A DNA stretch of 30,582 bases from positions 1-30,582 of the forward strand of contig NZ_CP065048.1 in assembly GCF_015689175.1 (NCBI RefSeq), written 5' to 3'. The position numbers and the translations under genes are program-made. The stretch is from Mycobacterium kubicae. GTDB lineage: Bacteria; Actinomycetota; Actinomycetes; Mycobacteriales; Mycobacteriaceae. Shown here one piece after another: positions 4,865 through 30,052 of the stretch (its first letter is position 1; each line of letters opens with the position of its first letter). The notes beneath the pieces are model-generated. The model saw nothing but the letters and a program-made list of their open reading frames with translations, had not been told where the DNA came from and did no database searches.

Positions 4865-4960
4865 TCACGACCTCTAATGCCTTGTGCAAGGTCGATTTGC
4901 CGACAAGCCGAGTGGTAACGGTTTGGTAACGACCCGTACAAATACCGGCTTACCTGGGTA

Positions 4961-5016
4961 GACGTAATGACGTAATAGCGTGTTGACGCATATGCGTCAT
5001 TGCGCTGTGACGTAAT
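4961..5016. repeat. GACGTAAY repeat cluster 1 (candidate partition site) upstream of parA
   Basis: Two head-to-tail GACGTAAT units lie at 4961-4976, a perfect 16-bp palindrome TGACGCATATGCGTCA at 4984-4999 and another TGACGTAAT at 5008-5016. The last unit is 9 bp before the parA start, so binding here could both mark a centromere and repress parAB. The same unit recurs at 5807-5874 and 6811-6876. Confidence 0.72.
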
Positions 5017-5025
5017 GTTTGGGGC

Positions 5026-5601
5026 ATGCCTACGGTTTCTTTGGTCCACACCAAGGGTGGCGTCGCGAAGACGACGTCGGCGGTGTATCTCGCGACTGCT
5101 GCGCAGCGCCGCGGCCGCGATGTCGTACTTGTCGATGCCGACCCGCAGGGCTCGGCGCTGGAATGGGCGGCGGCCGCCCAGGATGACCCGTTGCCGTTTT
5201 CGGTGGTGCCGGCACGCCGGCCCCTGGACGTCAGTGGTCCCCAGGAGTTGACGATCGTGGACACTCCCCCGGGTACGGCGCAGGTTATTCAAGAAGCGAT
5301 TGAGCTGGCCGATCTGGTCGTGGTGCCCACGGGGGCTTCGCCACTGGATGTCCGCCGGGTGTGGCCGACTTTGGAGATCACCGCGCACCGCCCCACAGCC
5401 GTGTTGTTGACCGGCGTGGATCTGCGTACCCGACTAGCCGACGAGGTGAAGACCCTGCTGGAGGACGAAGGGGTGCCGGTGATCGAAACGCGGATTGTTC
5501 GCCGCGAGGGCATCCGCCGGGCGTTCGGGGCTACACCGGATCACCTGTACGGCTATGACGACGTGTTCGACGAGCTGCTGGGGGCGCTGGTTCATGTCTG
5601 A
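5026..5601 (+). CDS. parA: ParA family partition ATPase (short type Ib-like)
   Basis: This is a 191-residue Walker-type cytoskeletal ATPase that segregates plasmid copies by ATP-dependent binding to the nucleoid. Residues 10-17, KGGVAKTT, are the deviant Walker A motif with its signature lysine. VLVDADPQG near residues 34-42 and TIVDTPPG near 75-83 are the Walker A' and Walker B regions. It lacks the N-terminal HTH extension of type Ia ParA, so another protein must regulate the operon. The next gene overlaps it by 8 bp and encodes an RHH protein, the usual type Ib partner. The repeats immediately upstream are the likely centromere or operator. Confidence 0.93.
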   Translation: MPTVSLVHTKGGVAKTTSAVYLATAAQRRGRDVVLVDADPQGSALEWAAAAQDDPLPFSVVPARRPLDVSGPQELTIVDTPPGTAQVIQEAIELADLVVVPTGASPLDVRRVWPTLEITAHRPTAVLLTGVDLRTRLADEVKTLLEDEGVPVIETRIVRREGIRRAFGATPDHLYGYDDVFDELLGALVHV

Positions 5602-5821
5602 TTTGACTTCGAAGATGGCCGCGCGGGTGAAGACAGAGCCGACCAAGCGGGCGGCGGAGGCGTTCCGCTCCCCCACTGACGATATGCAGCGTGCCACGGT
5701 CTATCTGCCACGCGCGACGGTGCGCGGACTGAAGCAGGCTGCACTAGATCAGGACACCAGCATGAGCAAAATCCTCACTGACCTGGCCGATCAGTGGTTG
5801 GCGCAAAACGTAAAGACGTGA
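5594..5821 (+). CDS. Small ribbon-helix-helix centromere-binding protein (ParB/ParG-like)
   Basis: This 75-residue protein has a basic flexible N-terminus (about residues 1-30) and a C-terminal ribbon-helix-helix: a RATVYLPRATV strand, an RGLKQAALDQD helix and a SMSKILTDLADQWL helix. Type Ib partition systems pair a short ParA with exactly this kind of small RHH protein, which binds short tandem repeats. The ATG at 5594 overlaps parA by 8 bp, implying coupled translation. Its 3' end runs into repeat cluster 2: the coding bases for the last residues and the stop are part of the 8-bp array. Confidence 0.82.
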   Translation: MSDLTSKMAARVKTEPTKRAAEAFRSPTDDMQRATVYLPRATVRGLKQAALDQDTSMSKILTDLADQWLAQNVKT

Positions 5822-5874
5822 TGACGTAAAGACGTAACGACGTAATGACGCGTATACGTTGTTGCGTCATTACG
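5807..5874. repeat. GACGTAAY repeat cluster 2 downstream of the partition operon
   Basis: Five contiguous 8-bp units run exactly in phase over 5807-5846: AACGTAAA, GACGTGAT, GACGTAAA, GACGTAAC and GACGTAAT. An inverted repeat with 11-bp arms follows, CGTAATGACGC at 5841-5851 and its complement at 5864-5874. An 8-bp period with a final inversion fits arrays bound by RHH dimers. The first units overlap the 3' end of the RHH gene. Confidence 0.78.
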
Positions 5875-5904
5875 CGCACAACTTCATGCCACGGTTGGAA
5901 ACGC

Positions 5905-6810: not shown

Positions 6811-6876
6811 AACGTAATGACGTAACGTAATGACGTACTGACGTAGTGACGTATATACGTCGTTACGTCACTACGT
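6811..6876. repeat. GACGTAAY repeat cluster 3 overlapping the end of the AlbA_2 gene
   Basis: Units AACGTAAT, GACGTAAC, a truncated GTAAT, GACGTACT, GACGTAGT and GACGTATA run from 6811 to 6855. They include an inverted repeat with 13-bp arms (6841-6853 and 6864-6876, 10-bp spacer). The layout, tandem 8-mers then an inversion, copies cluster 2. The right arm encodes the last residues and stop codon of the minus-strand AlbA_2 gene. Confidence 0.78.
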
Positions 6877-8111: not shown

Positions 8112-8753
8112 CTAGCGGCTGAGCATTTCGAGTAGTCGCTTTGCCCCGCGGTCAGACACCGACTGCGACGATAGGACGTAGGCGGCGGCTTGATCGGGAG
8201 TGAGACGGCCGCCGCTGATGTGGCCGCTGAGAAATCGCCGTGCTTGGGCCTTGTCATCTGCTCCGGTCCAGCCGTTGCGACCGCCGTAGAAAATGACGGA
8301 ATCGAGGTCTTTGCGCACGTCATCGTCCATCTCGGAGGTGGTGACCTCTCCTGTCAGCAAGTTGATGGCGGCCGCGCCAGCAGCCCACTCGGCCAAGGGT
8401 GTGGAGCCCTCGACGACAGCAAGTGAATGACCGCGGGCGAGGCCCATCGCGAAGTGCAACGACCGTTCATCTGGCACGAAGGCGAGAACCGGCCCGCGGT
8501 CAGGCCGGTTGCGGCTTTGCGGAGTGGCGTGCCCACCCGCTCGGATGATCTCGTCGAGGTCGGCATAACCGAAGCTCGCGGCATTTTGCGCGTTGCTCAC
8601 CAGCAGCGGCGCTAGATCCTCCTCCTGGCCGCGTTCCCAGATCCAATTGGCGGCCAGGGCGATGGCGTCCTCATACGGCCGATCTTCGACGTCATCGGGG
8701 ACCCACGCCGCGGCTCGCAGATGAGTCGACGGGTGCAGTTCGGCGCTGGTCAT
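8112..8753 (-). CDS. Hypothetical protein in the resolvase/AlbA_2 operon
   Basis: This 213-residue soluble protein has no family I recognise. Its ATG shares an A with the resolvase stop codon (TAATG), and its stop is 28 bp before the AlbA_2 gene, so the three genes should be cotranslated. It is acidic and mostly helical by composition. The middle (about residues 85-130) has alternating hydrophobic stretches, VLAFVPDERSLHFAMGLA and SLAVVEG, suggestive of an alpha/beta fold. The C-terminus (GRLTPDQAAAYVLSSQSVSDRGAKRLLEML) looks helical. There are no metal-binding cysteines and no membrane segments. Confidence 0.75.
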   Translation of the reverse strand: MTSAELHPSTHLRAAAWVPDDVEDRPYEDAIALAANWIWERGQEEDLAPLLVSNAQNAASFGYADLDEIIRAGGHATPQSRNRPDRGPVLAFVPDERSLHFAMGLARGHSLAVVEGSTPLAEWAAGAAAINLLTGEVTTSEMDDDVRKDLDSVIFYGGRNGWTGADDKAQARRFLSGHISGGRLTPDQAAAYVLSSQSVSDRGAKRLLEMLSR

Positions 8754-9337
8754 TACGCGGCTCCTGAGGGCGAGCTGAGTTTGGCCAGGTAGCGGTACGC
8801 CGTGGCCCGACTGATACCGAATGCTTGAGCAAGTTCAGGGACCGGTTCCCCCGTTGCGGCGAGTCGGCGCAGCTGTTCTTGGCGTTCCGGGGTCAGCTTG
8901 GCCGGCTTGGTAGCCGGCAGTTGGCGAACTCGGCGGGAGTCCCGGGATGCGGCGCGCCGCTCGCGGCCGAGTTCGAGTTCGAGCTCGGCCAGCGTAGCCA
9001 TAATAGTGGCCACCGCACGCCCTGTCGGTGTACCGGTGTCTACGCCTTCGCGTAAGGCGCGCAATAGAATTCGGCGCTGGCCAAGCTCTGCGATGGTGCG
9101 AGTTACTTCTACGACAGATCGGCCCAGTCGATCGATGGCGGTGACCACTACGGTGTCACCTTCGCGGGCGTAGTGCAGCAAGGCCGTCAGGCCTGGCCGA
9201 TCGGTGTTCACTGCACCGGAGACTTTGTCGGTGAAGACATGGCCAGATTCGACCCCCTCGGCGGCGAGCGCGGCGAGCTGCGCATCGAGATCCTGGCCCA
9301 CAGTGCTCACCCGCGCGTACCCGAGAATCGCTGTCAC
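8753..9337 (-). CDS. Serine recombinase (resolvase/invertase family)
   Basis: The product has 194 residues if started at the GTG at 9337, giving the normal N-terminus before GYARVST. The nucleophile is Ser11 in RVST, and the conserved DRLGRS motif follows near residue 67. The ATIMATLAELELELGRER region matches the start of the long E helix. Residues about 155-190 form the C-terminal HTH (PVPELAQAFGISRATAYRYLAK), so the protein has the size and layout of Tn3-type resolvases. These enzymes recombine short dyad sites, resolving cointegrates or plasmid multimers. A perfect 12+2+12 site lies upstream (9452-9477). The frame runs open to 9397, but that would put the start inside the putative site. 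Confidence 0.9.
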   Translation of the reverse strand: MTAILGYARVSTVGQDLDAQLAALAAEGVESGHVFTDKVSGAVNTDRPGLTALLHYAREGDTVVVTAIDRLGRSVVEVTRTIAELGQRRILLRALREGVDTGTPTGRAVATIMATLAELELELGRERRAASRDSRRVRQLPATKPAKLTPERQEQLRRLAATGEPVPELAQAFGISRATAYRYLAKLSSPSGAA

Positions 9338-9375: not shown

Positions 9376-9477
9376 TGAGACACGCGGTGTGAGACAAGAA
9401 ATGAGACAGTACGACCAGCGGTTACGCGACAGGGGAGTAGCGCCCGATGGGTGTCTCGTTTCTTTAGAAACGAGACA
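9376..9477. promoter_or_regulatory. Putative resolution site A of the serine recombinase
   Basis: The core at 9452-9477 is a perfect dyad, TGTCTCGTTTCT-TT-AGAAACGAGACA. Its TGTCT...AGACA ends and two central bases match the general form of serine resolvase crossover sites. Three TGAGACA boxes (9376-9382, 9390-9396 and 9402-9408) lie on the resolvase-gene side and could be accessory subsites. The region also overlaps the expected resolvase promoter, so autoregulation is likely. Related sequences recur at 11470 and 13439. Confidence 0.68.
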
Positions 9478-9530
9478 GCATGGGACGTCGCTTTTCGTCT
9501 TCCGTCGGGCGTGGGCTCAATAGCGGCCGC

Positions 9531-10883
9531 TTAGAGCATCGAGCCGAGGTCGGAGCCCAGGGTGGGGTACGCCGCGGTGGTTGTCTTGAGCTGGCGTGTG
9601 GTGAGGCCTAGTTTGATGGCCAGGGCCACGATGTTGGCGTGTTCGGTGTAGTCCGGTCCGAGCAGGTGTGCGCCCACGATTCGGTCGTCGTCCTTATTGA
9701 CGAGGATCTTGGCTGCGGCGGTATCTTCGCCGAGGCGGTAGCTCGAATACCAGGTGCTGGCGTCGGTGTAGCGCACGTCGATCTTCAATCCCAGGTCGCG
9801 GGCTTCTGTTTCGAGCAACCCAACGCGCGCCAGTTCGGGGATCGTGAATACAGCCGACGGGATACCCGTGTAGTCGGGCACGGTGCTGGCGTCTTTGAGC
9901 ATGTTGGAGGCGGCTACTTTGCCTTCGATGACGGCCACGGGCGTCAACGGGGGGCCGGCGGTGTCTGCGGCATCCCCGGCGGCGTAGACGCCGGGGTGTG
10001 TGGTGCTTTGCAGGTACGGCTCCACACTGATTCCTCGCTCACACCACGCGATGCCAGCACGGTCGAGGTCGAGTTCGGCCAGCTCGGGGACGCGTCCGGC
10101 GCCGTGAACCACCAAGTCTGTATCGATGGTGGTAAGAGTTCCATCCTGATCGACCTGGACTTGGTATCCGGACGCCGTCGCACGTACAGCGGTGACCGTG
10201 GTGGACGGCTGCACGTGAACTCCGGCAACGTCGCCGCCGGCGATCAACAGGTCGACTAGATCGGGGTCGAACCCCTTCAGTGGGCGCGGACCGTGATCGA
10301 GGATGATCGGGTGGCTGCCCGCCCGGGCGGCGATGTGGGCGAACTCGAAAGAAATGTAACCGCCCCCAACGAACACGATTCGCGGTGGCAAAACCTCCAA
10401 TTCGAGGAACTCGGTGCTGTCGATGAGGTGTTCGTTTCCGTGGAACTGCAGCGGTCGGGGCCGCGCTCCAGTAGCAATCAAGACCCGGTCTGTGTGGTGG
10501 GAGTCGTTTCCGATGCTGATCTGATGGGCGTCTACGAACTGGGCCTGACCATGCAGTGTTTGGACGCCGTGGCGACGTAGGTCGTTTTCCATGTTCGCTG
10601 GTGCCGGATCGGTGAAGCCCCGTTTGTGGCGCATCAGATCGGTCCAGTTGATGCGGATCTGGCCATCGTCGATACCTTTTCCGCGCATCAGTTGGGAAGC
10701 GTCGATGATTTCGGCGCCACGGCGCAGGATCTTTTTCGGGTCGCATCCGCGCAGCGCGCAGGTACCGCCGTAGGGCAACGCGTCGACGATCGCCACGCGC
10801 CAGCCCTGGGCGGCGCACTTATTGGCGGCGGCGATACCGGCCATGCCGGCACCGATCACGATCAAATCGAAGCGGGCAGTCAT
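9531..10883 (-). CDS. FAD-dependent pyridine nucleotide-disulfide oxidoreductase (MerA/glutathione reductase-like)
   Basis: This 450-residue protein starts MTARFDLIVIGAG. It has the FAD-binding GAGMAG motif (residues 11-16), the redox-active pair C42/C47 in GGTCALRGCDPKK, an NAD(P)-binding GGGYISFEFA near residue 188, and a second FAD motif ending YAAGDAAD near 310. It lacks the N-terminal heavy-metal domain and the C-terminal vicinal cysteines of true mercuric reductase. The catalytic His-x4-Glu of glutathione reductase is also absent: the tail reads AAYPTLGSDLGSML. It is therefore better called a MerA-like flavin reductase of unknown substrate. It is transcribed divergently from a MerR-type metal sensor gene with a matching promoter, so metal or thiol stress induction is likely. 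Confidence 0.85.
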   Translation of the reverse strand: MTARFDLIVIGAGMAGIAAANKCAAQGWRVAIVDALPYGGTCALRGCDPKKILRRGAEIIDASQLMRGKGIDDGQIRINWTDLMRHKRGFTDPAPANMENDLRRHGVQTLHGQAQFVDAHQISIGNDSHHTDRVLIATGARPRPLQFHGNEHLIDSTEFLELEVLPPRIVFVGGGYISFEFAHIAARAGSHPIILDHGPRPLKGFDPDLVDLLIAGGDVAGVHVQPSTTVTAVRATASGYQVQVDQDGTLTTIDTDLVVHGAGRVPELAELDLDRAGIAWCERGISVEPYLQSTTHPGVYAAGDAADTAGPPLTPVAVIEGKVAASNMLKDASTVPDYTGIPSAVFTIPELARVGLLETEARDLGLKIDVRYTDASTWYSSYRLGEDTAAAKILVNKDDDRIVGAHLLGPDYTEHANIVALAIKLGLTTRQLKTTTAAYPTLGSDLGSML

Positions 10884-10949
10884 CGCCCCACCTGGGTGAT
10901 CGCACCGCAACCGGCCCCTCGGTGCACACGTTTGCAAGTCATGAGGTCA

Positions 10950-10980
10950 CGCTAAACATTGCAGTGCAGTACAAGGTCAA
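10950..10980 (-). promoter_or_regulatory. MerR-type promoter/operator of the oxidoreductase gene
   Basis: On the minus strand a TTGACC -35 box (10980-10975) is separated by 19 bp from TTAGCG (10955-10950). The over-long spacer is typical of promoters activated by MerR proteins. The spacer carries an imperfect dyad, 10957-10976, with half-sites CATTGCAGTGC and CCTTGTACTGC matching at 8 of 11 positions. The promoter faces the oxidoreductase gene. Confidence 0.75.
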
Positions 10981-10988
10981 GGATTAGT

Positions 10989-11399
10989 GTGGCGAGGATG
11001 CTGATCGGAGAGCTGGCACGATCCGTGGATCTATCGCCGCAGACCATCCGTTTCTACGAACGACGCGGACTACTGCCAGCACCTCGCCGCGGCACCAATG
11101 GCTACCGGCGCTACGACCGCACTGCGATCACCCGACTGCACTTCATCCGCGCCGGACAAGCCGCCGGACTGACCCTGGACGATATCGCCAGCATCGTGGA
11201 CCTTCGTGACCACGGAACGGCACCCTGCGAGCACGTACACGCGCTACTCAGCGGCAAGCTCGACGACATAACACAGCGCCAACAAGAGCTGGCATCGCTA
11301 GCAACAGAACTGCGTCGACTCCTTCACCGCAGCCGGACGCTGAATCCTTTGAACTGCACCGACGCCCGCATCTGTCACATCCTCAGCGAGGCTCCGTGA
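10989..11399 (+). CDS. MerR family metal-responsive transcriptional regulator
   Basis: The product has 136 residues from the GTG at 10989, which is preceded by AAGGA at 5-nt spacing. The N-terminal winged HTH is classic MerR: IGELARSVDLSPQTIRFYERRGLLPAPRR near residues 5-33 and GYRRYD near 38. A long dimerisation helix follows. Three cysteines suit metal coordination: one in APCEHV near residue 79 and two in NCTDARIC near 122-129. This resembles the Hg/Zn/Cd/Pb branch rather than the CueR copper branch. MerR proteins distort a 19-20 bp spacer promoter, and such a promoter lies immediately upstream, facing the oxidoreductase gene. The metal cannot be told from sequence. Confidence 0.9.
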   Translation: MARMLIGELARSVDLSPQTIRFYERRGLLPAPRRGTNGYRRYDRTAITRLHFIRAGQAAGLTLDDIASIVDLRDHGTAPCEHVHALLSGKLDDITQRQQELASLATELRRLLHRSRTLNPLNCTDARICHILSEAP

Positions 11400-11469
11400 T
11401 GGGCGTGATCGAGTCTGGTGGCAGGGCCTGGCCGGGCCGCTCCGGCGTCAAAGGGACGGGGACTCCAGA

Positions 11470-11512
11470 TGAGACAGGATGTGATCGGCCTCGTTTCTTT
11501 TTGAACTGAGAC
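11470..11512. promoter_or_regulatory. Resolution-site-like sequence B between merR and chrB
   Basis: TGAGACA (11470-11476), then CCTCGTTTCT (11489-11498), then GAACTGAGAC (11503-11512). The segment 11470-11498 matches 13439-13467 (site C) at 25 of 29 positions with no gaps. The core is a degenerate version of the perfect dyad at 9452-9477, with 5 rather than 4 bases between the TTTC/GAA arms. It has the same orientation as sites A and C. Confidence 0.6.
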
Positions 11513-11550
11513 CGGCGTTAATGCGACCCGGGGGTGTGGTCGCCGCCCGA

Positions 11551-11576
11551 ATGTAACCGCTGATACATTTTTAGAT
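11551..11576 (+). promoter_or_regulatory. Leaderless promoter with dyad in front of the ChrB-like gene
   Basis: TACATT (11564-11569) fits a -10 box 7 bp before the GTG start, the spacing of a leaderless actinobacterial mRNA. ATGTA (11551-11555) and TACAT (11564-11568) form a dyad overlapping the -10 box, a likely repressor site. No clear ribosome-binding site is present. Confidence 0.5.
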
Positions 11577-12122
11577 GTGGCAGAGACATCGGTCCGATGG
11601 TTGGTTCTGGTGGTACGAATGCCTGCGGAGCCTTCGCGGCACCGAGTCGCGGTGTGGCGCGAGCTGCGGCGCGCTGGGGCCACCCTGTTGGGGCAGGGGG
11701 TATGGGCGGTGCCCGATGCCCCGGTATTCGCCGATGGAATCGCCCGAACCGAAGAGCTAGCTGAACGCGGTGACGGCGAGGTGACGGTGCTGGCCGCGTC
11801 CGGACGCAATGAATCCGACGCTGCGCGTCTGGAAGCCTTGTTCACCGCTGAACGGAGCGAGGAGTGGGCTGAGTTCATCTCCGACTGCGCCAATTTCGAC
11901 GCCGAAATCGACAAAGAGATTCGAATCGCCAAGTTCACGATCGCTGAGCTCGAAGAAGAAGAACACAGCCTAGAGCGACTGCGTCGATGGCACCGCGAAC
12001 TGACCGCGCGTGATGTATTCGGCGCCCCCGAGGTGACCGAGGCCAACCAGCAGCTCAAGCATTGCATCGAACGCCTCGCCGACTACACCGAGCGGGTTTT
12101 CACCGCGTTGCACCAGCTATGA
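11577..12122 (+). CDS. chrB: ChrB-like protein (chromate-resistance regulator family)
   Basis: This 181-residue protein begins VRWLVLVVRMPAEPSRHRVAVWRELRRAGA and continues LLGQGVWAVPD, the N-terminal pattern of the ChrB family. After it come an acidic stretch with FTAERSEEWAEFISDC and a long, charged, probably coiled-coil region (EKEIRIAKFTIAELEEEEHSLERL-type, residues about 105-140). ChrB proteins control chromate resistance genes as chromate-sensing regulators. The full-length family has a second C-terminal domain that is missing here, so this is the short form. A transporter gene follows 37 bp downstream in the same direction, and the promoter looks leaderless with a dyad over the -10 box. 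Confidence 0.75.
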   Translation: MAETSVRWLVLVVRMPAEPSRHRVAVWRELRRAGATLLGQGVWAVPDAPVFADGIARTEELAERGDGEVTVLAASGRNESDAARLEALFTAERSEEWAEFISDCANFDAEIDKEIRIAKFTIAELEEEEHSLERLRRWHRELTARDVFGAPEVTEANQQLKHCIERLADYTERVFTALHQL

Positions 12123-12159
12123 CACTCGCCACCGCCGGCACAAACCCACTGTCACCGGC

Positions 12160-13365
12160 ATGAGTACGCCCAACTCTGCCGATACAGGCCTCGGGGGGAC
12201 CCGAACTCAGTTGTTGCCTTTGTACGCGGCGGGATTCGTCACCGCATTCGGCGCTCACAGCATTGCCGCCACCTTGGGCGGCTATATCGACGGGCCATAC
12301 ACATCGCTGCTCACCCTGGGCCTGCTGCTGGCCATCTACGACGGAGCCGAAGTCATCCTCAAACCGGTATTCGGATCGTTGGCCGATCGCATTGGCGCCC
12401 GCCCAGTTCTGCTCGGCGGACTGCTCGCCTTCGCCGCGGCATCCGCTGCCTTCGTCATCGCTGGAGATCCTGCCTGGTTGGGCGTGACCCGATTCGCTCA
12501 GGGCGCCGCCGCAGCAGCATTCTCACCTGCCGCCGGGGTATTGGTGTCGCGGCTAACCGCGCCGGGGCAGCAAGGCCGCGGCTTCGGTCGCTACGGTGCC
12601 TGGAAAGGACTTGGCTACACCCTGGGACCGGTATTGGGAGGGGTGCTCATCACCTGGGGCGGCTACACCCTGCTCTTCGCCACGCTCGCCACACTAGGAA
12701 CGGCGGTCGCAGCGTGGGCGCTGCTGATGGTGCCGGGGGTGGCACCGTTGCCGCGGGTCCGCCAGACGGTACTCGACCTGGGCCGCCGACTCGCCAGCCC
12801 GGGCTTTCTGCGCCCGACCCTCGCACTAGCCGCGGCCACCGCCGCATTATCGGTCGGTGTTGGCTTCCTCCCCGTCATCGGCGCCAGCCGCGGCCTCAGC
12901 CCACTTCTCACCGGAGCGGTCGTCTCGGTGTTGGCAGCGGCGACCGCCGTAGTTCAGCCCGGGGTTGGGCGCGCTCGCGATGACGGGCGCATCGGGGACC
13001 GCACCGGGTTGTCAACCGGCCTACTGCTCGCTGCCGCCGGGTGCGCGGCGGTGGTGATACCAGGAATCATGGGCCTGGCCAGCGCTGCCGTACTGATCGG
13101 CATTGGCGTAGGCGTCGTCACCCCGATCGGGTTCGCCTCTCTGGCCGCGTCCACTCCCGCTGAACGGCTCGGCCAAACCATGGGCTCTGCCGAAGTGGGC
13201 CGCGAACTCGGAGATGCCGGTGGGCCACTACTCGTCGGCGCCCTCGCCGCCGCGGCCACCTTGACCCCTGCGCTACTGGTATTCGCTACTGCCCTAGCCG
13301 CCACCGCCGCGCTCAGCACCGCGCCCACCGCCGGTCGTCACGCCCAAACCAGCAATGACACCTAG
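12160..13365 (+). CDS. MFS transporter (12 TM), probable chromate or metal-oxyanion efflux
   Basis: This 401-residue protein has about 12 hydrophobic segments. The loop between helices 2 and 3 contains GSLADRIGARPVLLGG, the conserved MFS motif A. The region near residue 140 (GAWKGLGYTLGPVLGG) matches the proline/glycine-rich TM5 motif of drug/proton antiporters. The gene is directly downstream of the ChrB-like gene, and actinobacterial chrB genes are often paired with an MFS permease instead of ChrA. Chromate efflux is therefore the best guess, but family membership alone would allow other substrates. The start ATG at 12160 has only a weak ribosome-binding site. Confidence 0.85.
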   Translation: MSTPNSADTGLGGTRTQLLPLYAAGFVTAFGAHSIAATLGGYIDGPYTSLLTLGLLLAIYDGAEVILKPVFGSLADRIGARPVLLGGLLAFAAASAAFVIAGDPAWLGVTRFAQGAAAAAFSPAAGVLVSRLTAPGQQGRGFGRYGAWKGLGYTLGPVLGGVLITWGGYTLLFATLATLGTAVAAWALLMVPGVAPLPRVRQTVLDLGRRLASPGFLRPTLALAAATAALSVGVGFLPVIGASRGLSPLLTGAVVSVLAAATAVVQPGVGRARDDGRIGDRTGLSTGLLLAAAGCAAVVIPGIMGLASAAVLIGIGVGVVTPIGFASLAASTPAERLGQTMGSAEVGRELGDAGGPLLVGALAAAATLTPALLVFATALAATAALSTAPTAGRHAQTSNDT

Positions 13366-13438
13366 TCATCTCCACCGATCCGCATCACCCGCCGCCGAAC
13401 TTGCCACCGGCCCTAGATCGCCGCTACACACCTCCACC

Positions 13439-13481
13439 TGAGACAAGAACTGATCGACCTCGTTTCTCTAGATGTGCGACA
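13439..13481. promoter_or_regulatory. Resolution-site-like sequence C after the MFS gene
   Basis: TGAGACA (13439-13445), CCTCGTTTCT (13458-13467), two central bases CT, then AGATGTGCGACA (13470-13481). The half-site geometry equals the perfect site at 9452-9477 (12+2+12). The first 15 bases (13439-13453) match 9390-9404 at 14 of 15 positions. It is in direct orientation with sites A and B and lies just past the end of the chrB/MFS unit. Confidence 0.62.
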
Positions 13482-13577
13482 GGAGCAATGTGCTCAACTG
13501 TCAGCGGACATGGCTATCTCGGGAGAGCGGGCCCAGTTGTGACGGCCGGATGTCCCGACGTCCCTATCCTTGGAGGC

Positions 13578-13958
13578 GTGACGAGCGAGTGCGGTGACAC
13601 CGGGTCGGAGCTGCCTTCGTCCCCGACTTCGTCCCGCCGTTTCGGTCAACTGCCCGACCTTGGTGTCTCAGATGACTTCGACAAGCCGCTACCTCGCGGT
13701 GATGTCGCTGTGTGGGAAGCGTCTGACACGTCGGCCCACCAGGGCGACAGCGAAGCCCCCGACGAGTGGACCATCGACGAACTCGACGACTGGCCCTTCG
13801 ACGACCCCTCCATCGATGTGGCAGCCCTGCTTCAGTCGCTGCGAGAGTCGGATGCCGACCGCGCAGCCGGCCACACGTTCGGTGAAGAAGAGATTCGCGC
13901 TCGCTATGGCTTGCCGAGGCCAGGCGTAAGCGACAGACCCGTCTCCGAACCTCGGTGA
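13578..13958 (+). CDS. Small acidic protein, possible orphan type II antitoxin-like
   Basis: The product has 126 residues from the GTG at 13578 (GGAGG lies only 1 nt upstream). An ATG at 13488 would give 156 residues and start just inside the boundary of site C. The protein is very acidic, with DEWTIDELDDWPFDDPSIDV near the middle. Its tail, ADRAAGHTFGEEEIRARYGL, resembles the C-termini of RelB/ParD/Phd-like antitoxins, where an acidic tail wraps the toxin. No recognisable toxin follows: a 51-codon frame overlaps its stop as GTGA but matches nothing. The function is uncertain and the start is unresolved. Confidence 0.5.
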   Translation: MTSECGDTGSELPSSPTSSRRFGQLPDLGVSDDFDKPLPRGDVAVWEASDTSAHQGDSEAPDEWTIDELDDWPFDDPSIDVAALLQSLRESDADRAAGHTFGEEEIRARYGLPRPGVSDRPVSEPR

Positions 13959-26223: not shown

Positions 26224-26991
26224 ATGCTGGCTGTGACGGTCGTGTTATCCGACGCGGCGAACGTGGCCGCGGAGTCGGACACTGCGGAGTTGAGCTGGGT
26301 TACCGCCGAAGGTGTGCCCCAACGGCTGTCACCGGATCAGGCCGCGGCGGTTCCGTTTGAGGACGGGCTGCCGGTGCGCCGGTTCACCACCCGCAAAGGC
26401 CAGCGTCATCTGAGCGGTCGGTGGTGGTGCGCAACAACGACCGGCCATGTTGGGTTCGAGTCATGGCTGGAACGCGATCATGTGATGTTGCTGGATTTTG
26501 ATCCGGCAGTGGTGGGGATTGCGGCGCAACCGTTTTGGTTGAGCTGGTCGGATGCTAGCGGTTCGATAGTGCGCCATGCCCCGGACTATTTCGCGAGGCG
26601 CGCAGATGGTTCGGCGGTCGTAATGGATTGCCGACCGATCGAGCGACGCCGCGATAGCGATCGGGCGAAATTCGAGGCGACCCGGCGGGCGTGCGCTCGA
26701 TTGGGTTGGGAGTACCGACTGGTCGGCAGTGTCGAGCCAATCCTGGCTGCTAACACTCGGTGGCTGGCGGGCTATCGCCATCCGCGCCATGGCCATCCGC
26801 TGATCGCACAGTTGCTGGTTGAAGTATTCGCGACACCTCGCGGATTGATGCACGGCGCGGCGAAAGTTGGAGACCCGATTGCGGTGCTGCCAGTGCTGTT
26901 TCACCTGCTGTGGCGCCAGACGCTGACAGCGGACCTGACCTGCCCGCTGAGCGAGATGAGTGTGGTCGCCGTGGCTGGGGCGCGGAGTTGA
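26224..26991 (+). CDS. tnsA: TnsA-like heteromeric transposase endonuclease subunit
   Basis: The 255-residue product is the presumed 5'-strand nuclease of a Tn7-like transposase. TnsA cuts the non-transferred strands so that the element leaves the donor cleanly. The fold pattern is visible: FESWLERDHVMLLDFDP (residues 78-94, with the first acidic residue E79 or E83), VVGIAAQPFWLSW, HAPDYF with D121, and VVMDCRP (132-138). In Tn7 TnsA the last motif is Q-V-K; here it reads D135-C-R137, so the catalytic lysine is replaced by arginine. The same replacement may be common in actinobacterial homologues. The stop overlaps the likely TTG start of tniA. Start ATG 26224 has a weak ribosome-binding site. 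Confidence 0.8.
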   Translation: MLAVTVVLSDAANVAAESDTAELSWVTAEGVPQRLSPDQAAAVPFEDGLPVRRFTTRKGQRHLSGRWWCATTTGHVGFESWLERDHVMLLDFDPAVVGIAAQPFWLSWSDASGSIVRHAPDYFARRADGSAVVMDCRPIERRRDSDRAKFEATRRACARLGWEYRLVGSVEPILAANTRWLAGYRHPRHGHPLIAQLLVEVFATPRGLMHGAAKVGDPIAVLPVLFHLLWRQTLTADLTCPLSEMSVVAVAGARS

Positions 26992-29015
26992 CCAACCGTC
27001 CAAGCGTCCTGCGGCCGGGCGATTGGGTGGTGCTCGACGGCGTCGAGCACCAGGTGGTGGCGTTGGCCGGGACATCGGTGCGGCTGCGGTCGGTGGGTGG
27101 TGCTGAGCAGGTGATGCTGTTGACGCATCTGCTGTCGTGGCCGGGGTTCACCGTGCTGGGTCACGAAGAAGACTGTGGACTTGAGCCTTTCGGGTTGTTA
27201 GAGACCCTGCCACCGGCGGTGGTCGCTGCGGCGCGTGAGTGGGAACGCCACGTCATTGAGGTTGAAACCGGGTTTAGTCCGGACGCGCCACCGGACTCGC
27301 CCGCCCGTGATGGGTTCGACCCGGCGGTGACCACGCTCGGCGAACGCGACGCAGCCAAGGCCGCCGAGCTTGGGGTGGGTGTGCGCACGGTACAGACGCG
27401 CCGGGCGCGGTATGCCCGACAAGGTTTGTGGGGCCTGGTAGATCAGCGGGCATCCCGGGAGTGGGCGGCCACAGGACGGGCTGATGCGCGGGTGGTGGCC
27501 GCGGTCGGCGAGGTGCTGGCTGCTGAGACCGACACGTCGACGGGCACCCGGTCGCGGCTGATGCGGCGGGTGGTGAGGAAGATCGAGGACGAGTACGGAC
27601 CGGGGGTTGTGCCATTGCCAGCGCGCACGGCGTTCTACCGGCTCGTCGAGTCGCTGGCCGCTGGCCGGCACACCTTCGGATCGGCGGTCACGCGCCGCCA
27701 GACCGCCAACCGCCCGCAGGGGATGTTCACGCCGAGCTTCGCGGCCAGGCCGGGTGAACAGGTGCAGATCGATTCGACCCCGATCGATGTGATGGTTTTG
27801 CTGGACAACGGAACGCCGGCAAGGGCGGACTTGACGATCGTGGTCGACATCGCGACGCGCACAATCCCGACCGCGGTCCTGCGCCCGGTGGGGACCAAGG
27901 CGGTGGACGCGGCCCTGCTCCTGGCGAAGATGGTAGTGCCCGAGCCGATGCGGCCGGGGTGGTCGGCGGCGTTGCAGATGTCGGCGTCAGTGCTGCCGCA
28001 CGCCCGGCTGGTCGATATCGACGCACGGATGCAACTGGCGGCGGCCCGGCCAGTGATCGTGCCGGACACGATCACCATCGACGGCGGGAAGGTGTTCGTC
28101 TCCGAGACGTTCACCCGAGCCTGTGAGCAGCTGGGGATCTCGGTACAGCAGGCGCGCCCGCGCACACCGACCGATAAGGCAATCGTGGAGGCCACGTTTT
28201 CGGCGATCAACACATTGTTCTGCCAGCACGTGGCCTCCTACACCGGGTCGAACCCGACTCGCCGCGGCAGCGACGTGACCGGAGCCTGGACGCTGCCCGA
28301 GCTGCAGGACCTGCTCGATGAGTGGCTGCTGGCGGGCTGGCAGAACCGCCCACACGACGCGCTGCGCGACCCGCTGGCCCCGCGTCGGATGCTCAGCCCC
28401 AACGAGAAGTACGCCGCATTGGTGGCCGCGGCCGGTTATCTCCCACTGACGCTGTCGGGGGAGGACTACCTGGAGTTGCTGCCGGTGAGCTGGCGGCAGA
28501 TCAACGCCTACGGCATCAGACTCGACTACCGCACCTATGATTGCCCCGAACTGGGTGTCTATCGGCTGCAGCACTCCGGGATCAACGCCCGCCGGGGACT
28601 GTGGGAAGTGCACTACGACCCCTACGACGTCAGCCGGGTGTTCGTGCGGACCCGCGATGGGTGGCTGACTGTGCCCTGGACACACCTACCGATGGTGTCG
28701 GCCCCGTTCGCCGAGTTCACCTGGCGCCACGCGCGCACCATCACCGCCCAACGGGGCCAAGACGACCGTAACGAAACCGAGGTCGCCCGGGTACTTGACG
28801 ACCTACTGACCCGCGCCCAAGCCGGGCCGGTCGACACCCGCACCGACCGCATCGCCGCCCGGACCCGCTTGGCTTTGATCGACCGTCCCCGCCTACCGGC
28901 GCCACCGGCAACGGCGGTCCATGCAGAGCCCGACGACGAATCCGCCGATGAACCGCTGGCCACGGTGATCCCATTCGGGGTCTTCGACGCCGACGTCGAG
29001 GCCGACCGATGGTGA
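26988..29015 (+). CDS. tniA: DDE transposase, TniA/TnsB type (Mu transposase C-terminal)
   Basis: The product has 675 residues from the TTG at 26988, which overlaps the tnsA-like stop (TTGA). A GTG at 26910 would add 26 residues inside tnsA, and the product would then have 701. The N-terminus has a small beta domain (LRPGDWVVLDGVEHQVV), then an HTH (AAELGVGVRTVQTRRARYARQGLWGLVDQR, residues about 125-155). The catalytic core is an integrase fold with D262 in QIDSTPID, D365 in TIDGGKVF and E401 in KAIVEATF, the last two 36 positions apart. A Mu-C beta-barrel follows near 500-560, with a helical tail that should bind TniB. It joins the 3' ends to target DNA and binds the terminal boxes. Confidence 0.93.
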   Translation: MTNRPSVLRPGDWVVLDGVEHQVVALAGTSVRLRSVGGAEQVMLLTHLLSWPGFTVLGHEEDCGLEPFGLLETLPPAVVAAAREWERHVIEVETGFSPDAPPDSPARDGFDPAVTTLGERDAAKAAELGVGVRTVQTRRARYARQGLWGLVDQRASREWAATGRADARVVAAVGEVLAAETDTSTGTRSRLMRRVVRKIEDEYGPGVVPLPARTAFYRLVESLAAGRHTFGSAVTRRQTANRPQGMFTPSFAARPGEQVQIDSTPIDVMVLLDNGTPARADLTIVVDIATRTIPTAVLRPVGTKAVDAALLLAKMVVPEPMRPGWSAALQMSASVLPHARLVDIDARMQLAAARPVIVPDTITIDGGKVFVSETFTRACEQLGISVQQARPRTPTDKAIVEATFSAINTLFCQHVASYTGSNPTRRGSDVTGAWTLPELQDLLDEWLLAGWQNRPHDALRDPLAPRRMLSPNEKYAALVAAAGYLPLTLSGEDYLELLPVSWRQINAYGIRLDYRTYDCPELGVYRLQHSGINARRGLWEVHYDPYDVSRVFVRTRDGWLTVPWTHLPMVSAPFAEFTWRHARTITAQRGQDDRNETEVARVLDDLLTRAQAGPVDTRTDRIAARTRLALIDRPRLPAPPATAVHAEPDDESADEPLATVIPFGVFDADVEADRW

Positions 29016-30052
29016 CCCGGCCAGCCGGCGACGAAGCGTGGACGGAAGAGCCGCTGACCACCAAGGAGGGGTGGCGGCGGTTCGTAGATCGGGCACCGGC
29101 ACCGGTAGAGGTGCTCGACCCAGCAACGCTGGGCCGGTTGTCAGCGGACCAGCGCGACGCCTACGACGAGGCCCGTCGCATCTATCACGCCGACCTGCCG
29201 TTGGCCAATACGCCGACGATCCAGAAGGTCATCAGCACTGCACGGCTTTTGGTGCAGCTCAACCGCAATCAGGTCTCGGCGCGGCGTGGGCTGATCGTGT
29301 CCGGCGCGTCGGGCACCGGCAAGACGACCGCGCTGACCCAACTGGGGCGCACCCACGAGCGTCATACACGAAAGCGCTATCCGGCCGACAAGCATCGGCT
29401 GCCTGTTCTGTATGTGACCGTTCCGCCTGCGGCGACAGCCCGGATGTTGGCTGTGGAGTTCGCCCGCTTTCTCGGGCTCAGTTTCACCAGTCGCGCCAAT
29501 ATCACCGACATCGTCGAGGCAGCCTGTGCTACGGCGACCCGCACCCACGTCGAACTGGTCTGCGTGGATGAACTGCATAACCTCAACCTGGCCACCCGCG
29601 CTGGTGCTGAGGTGTCTGATCAGCTGAAATACTTCGCCGAGCGACTACCCGCAACGTTCATCTACGCCGGCATCGACGTCGAAGCCGCCGGCCTGTTCGC
29701 CGGGGTTCGGGGCCGCCAGATCGCCGGCCGATTCAGCGTCATCCCTGCAACCGCCTTCGCCTACGGCACCAACGATCAGCGCACCCAATGGCGGGCGCTG
29801 ATCGCCACCATGGAATCCACCCTGCGGCTACACCAGCAGCGCCGCGGCAGTCTGATCGAACTCGACGAATACCTCTACCAACGGAGCGGCGGCATGATCG
29901 GCAGCCTGTCGCACCTGATTCGCGGCGCAGCGATCCTTGCCATCGAGGACGGCTGCGAGCACATCACCCGCGCCTTGCTTGACATGGTCCCCGTCGACTA
30001 TGCCGCCGAACGCGCCACCCCGACACGCACGACGCGTCGAGCAGTGAGCTAA
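29009..30052 (+). CDS. tniB: TniB-like AAA ATPase, transposition regulator
   Basis: The 347-residue AAA+ ATPase overlaps tniA by 7 bp. Walker A is GASGTGKTT (residues 99-107). Walker B is LVCVDELH (about 183-190) with the catalytic D187/E188. Sensor-like and arginine-rich stretches follow (GVRGRQIAGRF). TniB and TnsC proteins form ATP-dependent filaments on target DNA and connect the target selector TniQ with the transposase TniA. The order A-B-Q with tight overlaps is the standard operon of Tn5053-like elements. The start ATG 29009 lies within the last codons of tniA, so coupled translation is likely. Confidence 0.92.
   Translation: MVTRPAGDEAWTEEPLTTKEGWRRFVDRAPAPVEVLDPATLGRLSADQRDAYDEARRIYHADLPLANTPTIQKVISTARLLVQLNRNQVSARRGLIVSGASGTGKTTALTQLGRTHERHTRKRYPADKHRLPVLYVTVPPAATARMLAVEFARFLGLSFTSRANITDIVEAACATATRTHVELVCVDELHNLNLATRAGAEVSDQLKYFAERLPATFIYAGIDVEAAGLFAGVRGRQIAGRFSVIPATAFAYGTNDQRTQWRALIATMESTLRLHQQRRGSLIELDEYLYQRSGGMIGSLSHLIRGAAILAIEDGCEHITRALLDMVPVDYAAERATPTRTTRRAVS

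Follow-up and report, generated by a model that had tools for sequence, protein, structure and literature searches.

An integron is defined by the tyrosine recombinase gene intI together with the attI and attC sites, according to an excerpt of PMC8618304. The pdif modules of Acinetobacter plasmids are treated in parts of PMC11705084 and PMC6449649, and the former part has them mostly flanked by inverted sites, with no excision in the test cited. The usual substrate of a resolvase is a single molecule with two directly repeated res sites (a section of PMC12217951), and in site II of the Sin system the half-sites are placed in direct repeat (a section of PMC9943657). Here we describe a locus in a 30,582-nucleotide stretch of Mycobacterium kubicae DNA (positions 1 to 30,582, forward strand, of contig NZ_CP065048.1, assembly GCF_015689175.1; this whole stretch is called the window), in which a gene for a small serine resolvase lies beside its site, res, and a block of two gene cassettes ends in a copy of a 43-bp res-like element. 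The locus very probably represents a cassette-capture system built on a plasmid resolvase, in which cassettes would be captured and exchanged at res in an integron-like layout.

The layout resembles that of integrons in several respects: the recombinase gene points away from the array, a single capture site lies beside the recombinase, the tandem cassettes each end in a recombination site and stand in one orientation, the cargo includes toxin-antitoxin and metabolic genes, and there are arrays that lack a recombinase, as in clusters of attC sites lacking integron-integrases (CALIN). Tandem cassettes that face one way are thus present at a capture site adjoining the recombinase gene, but the enzyme is a small serine recombinase and not the tyrosine recombinase IntI, and because the recombinase family differs the system is not an integron. 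It differs also in having a sequence-conserved 43-bp res-like dyad, as expected of a duplex resolvase site, in place of a folded attC strand, in carrying genes in both orientations with often several open reading frames (ORFs) to a cassette, and in being found in mycobacteria (the titles of two metagenome-assembled genomes (MAGs) aside). As with the pdif modules, adaptive genes of plasmids lie between short recombination sites and sites of dimer-resolution type are reused for gene exchange; however, XerCD are tyrosine recombinases of the host, whereas the recombinase here is plasmid-borne and has a dedicated capture site, and its sites are direct in 31 of 31 loci. The element core matches site I of the plasmid resolvase, a 12+2+12 dyad. 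The Tn3, gamma-delta and Sin systems share the Resolvase and helix-turn-helix (HTH) domains, the position of the gene beside res, the crossover dyad of site I and the accessory boxes, which by their direct repeat recall Sin site II; in their standard form such systems act on a pair of identical res sites to resolve cointegrates or dimers, whereas here extra compact sites bound cargo genes. The res-hunter transposons of the Tn402/Tn5053 family likewise place cargo at plasmid res sites, but they transpose with 5-bp duplications (in the case cited in PMC12217951, in part), and the junctions here are those of a reciprocal crossover and have no duplication.

The res site and the 43-bp element

The features of the window on which the argument depends are as follows.

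8753-9337, minus strand: small serine recombinase (resolvase), 194 amino acids, Pfam Resolvase (3.5e-34) and HTH_7
9376-9408, plus strand: accessory part of res, three direct TGAGACA boxes (TGAGACA-N7-TGAGACA-N5-TGAGACA), aligned in 32 distinct res sequences
9452-9477, plus strand: res site I (site A), perfect 12+2+12 dyad TGTCTCGTTTCT-TT-AGAAACGAGACA
9466-13469, plus strand: two-cassette block of 4,004 bp, absent from loci L120, L121 and L122 and 100% identical in locus L059
11470-11513, plus strand: element B, degenerate copy with a 3-bp centre (12+3+12)
13439-13481, plus strand: element C, cassette-boundary site, crossover dinucleotide CT at 13468-13469
13470-13958, plus strand: recipient flank, joined directly to the left half of res site I in the empty contigs

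The resolvase has both the N-terminal Resolvase catalytic domain and the C-terminal HTH (Pfam), and its nearest solved relatives are invertase, Tn3, gamma-delta and Sin-type chains among others; in a near-identical plasmid the same gene is annotated as 'recombinase family protein'. Upstream of the gene, the TGAGACA boxes start at 9376, 9390 and 9402, and the dyad has its crossover dinucleotide TT at 9464-9465 and a right half-site that is part of the inserted block. Eight distinct plasmids, the window included, follow a common plan upstream of the resolvase gene, that is, direct TGAGACA boxes, a spacer of about 45 bp and a dyad of the form TGTCTCGTTTCT-YT-AGAAACGAGACA with variations. An adjacent res with a recognisable site I was found in 39 of 40 resolvase loci, and the remaining one, L060, has the boxes and no recognisable site I. 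When the 39 sequences (L060 left out) were collapsed to 32 distinct ones and aligned, mean pairwise identity was 89% in the left half-site with YT and 76% in the right half-site, and fell to 28% in the next 20 bases and 27% in the next 60, a drop which means that DNA to the right of the crossover is freely replaced. The first hint of this was that homology to four plasmids (H17, H20-H22) ends at window positions 9475-9478. Genes found next to res in named plasmids include mercury, tellurium, cadmium and phosphonate genes, GGDEF genes, a PemK/MazF pair and a reverse transcriptase; the last lies directly downstream of res in an M. chimaera plasmid (L143, 8900-10444). In L010 (1630-1669) and L064, another right half-site (14 bp) comes directly after site I, and this tiny insertion at the crossover is possibly a recombination scar.

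B and C are two instances of an element of 43 bp, for which a profile built on 72 distinct sites gives the consensus YGAGACARGAWCTGATCGAYCTCGWWTCT-YT-AGAAACGAGACA, with at most 0.25 bits of information per position on either side of the 43 bp. Its right end is a full 12+2+12 crossover dyad, conserved in sequence, and the core equals that of site I; since the element ends in the right half-site, it carries its own crossover dyad. Its left end reads TGAGACA-RGAWC-TGATCGA where the accessory part of res has TGAGACA-AGAAA-TGAGACA, and on the basis of this likeness to the accessory boxes we infer that the element is a compact derivative of res. The profile, whose training sites were found by a pattern with up to 5 mismatches, gave 137 matches of at least 5 bits in the fetched loci (training sites and redundant loci included) against 0 in reversed sequences (1.88 million positions). 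In the window, the pattern TGAGACA-N(8-16)-CCTCGTTTCT matches at B and C only, and in 100 shuffles there was no match.

The two copies differ in ungapped profile score (10.6 bits for B, 64.6 bits for C), and the low score of B is due to its 3-bp centre, where A and C have 2 bp; the extra base between the half-sites of B is also there in L006 and L059. For a serine recombinase, which cuts with a 2-bp stagger, a centre of 3 bp should be a bar to strand exchange, and element B is probably inactive. This fits the constant pairing of B and C, which occur together and 1,969 bp apart in all seven loci that carry B (the window, L006, L012, L055, L059, L066 and L067), some of which are the same plasmid.

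An earlier note on this DNA had pointed to a perfect 12+2+12 dyad with TGAGACA boxes beside the serine resolvase gene (9376-9477), which is what the window contains, and had taken B at 11470 and C at 13439 for module boundaries; both elements do start at these positions. The likeness reported there was confirmed, B and C agreeing in 25 of 29 bases without gaps and C and the accessory boxes of A (9390-9404) in 14 of 15, and so was the direct orientation of B and C on the plus strand. Some of its details needed revision: B and C do resemble resolvase sites, though each element is longer than had been thought and B has a 3-bp centre; and the spacing of 1,969 bp between B and C is correct, but, with B probably inactive, the unit that differs between plasmids is the block of 4,004 bp from A to C.

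Precise insertions and transfer of an identical block

In three other genomes of the genus (L120, L121 and L122, on two contigs of 38.8 and 15.7 kb and one of 422 kb), which have a resolvase 100% identical to that of the window, the site is empty: the left half of A and TT are followed directly by AGATGTGCGACA and the sequence found to the right of C. The flanks are identical to those of the window in all bases compared (3,014/3,014 on the left and 3,000/3,000 on the right), and the window contains exactly 4,004 bp more, without any target duplication. In element C the left part belongs to the block and the right half AGATGTGCGACA to the recipient backbone; the window, L006 and L059 have the left part in identical form, but each has a right half and flank of its own. 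The block itself recurs in L059, a contig of 8.7 kb that a matching record assigns to Mycolicibacterium sp. CR10, with 100% identity over 4,012 bp that ends 3.5 bp from the crossover on both sides, whereas the 461-bp stretch of resolvase and res is only 82.6% identical between the two; in L059, an additional cassette with a cadmium-transporter gene lies between res and the block. Presence of an identical block in two backbones requires transfer.

Comparison of all fetched loci yielded 54 pairwise precise insertions, of which 23 have both ends at crossovers. These 23 amount to three events, each immediately at res site I: one of 4,004 bp (window type), a second of about 1,324 bp in L059 and a third of about 919 bp in L137. 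The stretch common to the junctions is about 14-20 bp long. Single cassettes bounded by crossovers in both loci were seen in the pairs L052/L062, L047/L048 and L051/L057. Among 830 pairwise homology ends, a redundant set from which near-identical pairs were skipped, 73 lie within 20 bp of a crossover against about 5 expected.

Layout of arrays and their cargo

The layout was counted in 40 loci with 124 sites, after near copies (L012, L055, L063, L066, L067 and L080) and site-less loci (L007, L008, L009 and L014) had been dropped; these 40 loci partly share cassettes, and the sites counted include at least one true res site I (L013, 15647). Because loci were fetched for having elements or a resolvase, with contigs of several matches preferred and strand not used as a criterion, the counts describe arrays and not genomes at large. 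All 31 loci with at least two sites have them on one strand throughout (84 neighbouring pairs), with a median spacing of 1,340 bp. Crossovers fall within predicted ORFs at only 5 of 124 sites, with 66% of the DNA called as coding by the same program, and elements often sit just past stop codons. The 83 cassettes contain one ORF (44 cassettes), two to five (29) or none called (10), and their ORFs run on the strand of the sites in 79 cases and on the opposite strand in 45. In the longest array seen, that of L049, nine sites follow a resolvase gene. Where a resolvase has at least 60% identity, its gene is on the other strand from the sites and is read away from the array in all 18 cases, and it precedes every site in 17 of them; the sole exception to the upstream layout among these is a resolvase fragment inside an array (L077, 8604-8831). 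A stricter set without common site sequences gave the same picture (one strand in 29/29 loci; resolvase on the opposite strand in 23/23 and upstream in 22/23). In 30 of 52 non-redundant loci the fetched stretch does not contain the resolvase gene.

The cassette proteins scanned are diverse and include, by Pfam, cytochrome P450, mycothiol transferases, phosphotriesterase, UbiA, a phosphotransferase-family protein, a P-type ATPase and a cadmium transporter (40 proteins were scanned, 9 of them from the window; the cassette ORFs listed number 124). Ten cassette proteins were given to a library of defence proteins, and one matched, a MADS-like ATPase in L056.

Distribution across genomes

The element pattern, with up to 3 mismatches, was found in 77 of 396 genomes sampled from a larger genus group, where the reversed pattern gave no match. 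A class-wide sample of 394 genomes contained 26 of the same genus, 5 of which had the pattern, and 368 from outside the genus, none of which did. A scan of one genome per species with one exact pattern gave 17 stretches, 15 from Mycobacterium or Mycolicibacterium, one from an Actinomycetota MAG and one labelled Microbacterium (L157); since L157 has about 90% DNA identity over 4.9 kb to a Mycolicibacterium plasmid and 98.7-100% to copies of the block, we read it as mislabelled. One exact element pattern had no match in viral contigs. Within the 396 genomes, the element and a close resolvase (best E up to 1e-60, with the 59% identity matches in G214 and G286 left out) occur both in 33, the element alone in 44, the resolvase alone in 33 and neither in 286, an association with a Fisher p of 3.9e-10 that ignores kinship.

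Alternative explanations

Several observations weigh against capture by the plasmid resolvase at res. No close resolvase is present in 44 of the 77 element genomes, and 33 of the 66 resolvase genomes show no element at the threshold used. Among 18 further plasmid stretches, 14 have the resolvase gene, with the dyad beside it in 9 and no dyad in 5 at a stricter cut (21/26 matches). The break at site A is not universal either: in pMM23-type plasmids (H9-H16) homology of 85% continues through a related oxidoreductase gene, which there adjoins mercury genes. The resolvase of L056, 39% identical and therefore outside the layout count with its 60% limit, lies on the same strand as the elements. Most homology ends (757/830) are not at crossovers, and 31 of the 54 precise insertions are elsewhere, the 20 inspected looking like ordinary insertions of insertion sequences or other indels. 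The junction dinucleotides of the block differ, TT on the left and CT on the right, and a pair of empty and filled sites by itself is compatible with gain as well as with loss. Small resolvases moreover favour deletion, and recombination of res with res between plasmids, in the case of SGI1, had a very low rate, but was real (in the part of PMC12217951 concerned).

One alternative is that the cassettes are moved by a different enzyme, such as a distant serine recombinase from the host chromosome, with the plasmid resolvase merely having the same type of site. Relatives of about 55% identity do exist in many genomes, and the 30 non-redundant arrays and 44 element genomes lacking a close resolvase agree with this explanation. 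It is nevertheless unlikely, as the element core equals the site I core of the plasmid resolvase, all three precise insertions are at the res of this enzyme, and both the strict layout beside its gene and the significant co-occurrence are against it. Homologous recombination between short common repeats could have shuffled the genes without any site-specific enzyme, and the junctions do have common sequence; but at the three insertions this is just about 14-20 bp long, the ends cluster at one dinucleotide, the orientation is strict and conservation is absent outside the 43 bp, so that we consider this very improbable.

Transposition of the block into res by a transposon of the Tn402/Tn5053 type is more improbable still. 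Such transposons target res, and an insertion of this kind carries 5-bp repeats (both in the part of PMC12217951 concerned), and genes for a recombinase and a Mu-type transposase adjoin the resolvase in an M. avium plasmid; against this, the junctions of the 4,004-bp block have no target duplication, its ends are half-sites of the crossover core, its four genes include no transposase, and the empty site is the product of a reciprocal crossover. The thought that the repeats are promoters, operators or terminators lying between genes by happenstance has their intergenic position, often just after stop codons, in its favour, and its probability is close to nil, because the orientation of the repeats is fixed while genes run both ways, a natural empty site exists at the core, and the block is identical across contigs. 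The structure of the junctions led us to reject homologous recombination, transposition and the regulatory reading alike.

A possible mechanism

The element, the arrays and their layout, the precise empty and filled sites and the identical block on another contig are read directly from the sequence; for cassette capture at res, we infer in addition that the resolvase binds the elements and acts on them. The resolvase would bind res, composed of the direct TGAGACA boxes and the crossover dyad of site I, and each mobile cassette would end in the compact 43-bp element, whose core is that of site I. A crossover at the YT in its centre would then join a cassette to res site I, whereby cassettes would line up beside res, all facing one way, and the resolvase gene would face away from them. 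In what appears the most likely route, an element of the donor would on rare occasions cross over with res site I on a recipient plasmid to give a fusion of the two (cointegrate), and efficient resolution of res with res would separate the plasmids, leaving the donor cassettes beside the recipient res. This cointegrate route uses known resolvase reactions only and predicts insertion next to res, which matches three of three events. Alternatively, an excised circle might integrate at res.

The earlier note had proposed that the neighbouring resolvase brought in the resistance cassettes by site-specific recombination. The comparative evidence for this is strong (the empty site, the identical block in L059, two further insertions and the same-strand arrays), and the part of catalyst would fall to the resolvase. 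The suggested likeness to dif modules of XerCD holds for the short sites bounding genes, but the layout is nearer to that of an integron, with a capture site beside the recombinase and direct sites. The note had also asked whether the pattern flanks other genes, and the element indeed flanks diverse cassettes across the genus; the same sequences occurring as ordinary promoters or terminators apart from module boundaries were not seen, crossovers lying in predicted ORFs at the 5 of 124 sites mentioned above.

Other genes of the window

The window consists of bases 1-30,582 of contig C2, one of three contigs in its assembly, and the near relatives of its middle part include Mycobacterium intracellulare plasmids of 24.6-26.0 kb. 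Its block and flank contain the following genes.

9531-10883, minus strand: cassette 1, pyridine nucleotide-disulphide oxidoreductase, Pfam Pyr_redox_2 (4.6e-51)
10998-11399, plus strand: cassette 1, MerR-family regulator, Pfam MerR_1 (5.7e-19)
11577-12122, plus strand: cassette 2, ChrB N-terminal domain protein, Pfam ChrB_N (1.4e-73)
12160-13365, plus strand: cassette 2, transporter of the MFS family, Pfam MFS_1 (1.6e-39)
13578-13958, plus strand: hypothetical ORF within the recipient flank, no Pfam match

The family names of the block genes suggest a role in metal resistance. A search of the window against Rfam gave no family above threshold. Clusters of 8-bp repeats of the GACGTAAT type (4960-5005, 5806-5875 and 6823-6876) surround an ORF (5026-5601) that looks ParA-like, the matching place in pMi27 being annotated ParA, and are candidates for a partition site. 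At 26224-30052, a TnsA-like endonuclease (NCBIfam NF033179), a transposase-like ORF with weak IS481/IS21 matches and an unmatched ORF stand in a row, which may be a Tn7/Tn402-like module, its ATPase being a reading from the sequence itself. Another contig of the same genome (C3, 28 kb) has its own related resolvase (80%), a res and one element (L082, 2066-3295), so that two related systems would be present in one cell. Genes for a second recombinase and a Mu-type transposase occur in M. avium and M. paragordonae plasmids (L172, 6889-9870; L146, 2353-4466; L147, 9714-11827), in L172 directly beside the resolvase, and are possible res-hunter transposons.

Significance

Among the open-licence PMC matches listed, no title or start of abstract describes a resolvase-based cassette system, and a description elsewhere is possible. 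We regard it as likely that a genus-wide system of mobile cassettes has evolved in mycobacteria independently of integrons, in which res would be the capture site and its 43-bp derivative the cassette site, dimer resolution would drive transfer, and plasmid and chromosomal arrays would share one cassette pool. Integrons, the standard directional cassette arrays, depend on a tyrosine recombinase; another solution, with a plasmid resolvase as its basis, would show that cassette capture can evolve from dimer resolution. If true, this would account for the movement of metal-resistance, toxin-antitoxin and metabolic genes between mycobacteria of environmental and clinical origin, and the 43-bp motif provides a handle for mapping mycobacterial cassette pools.

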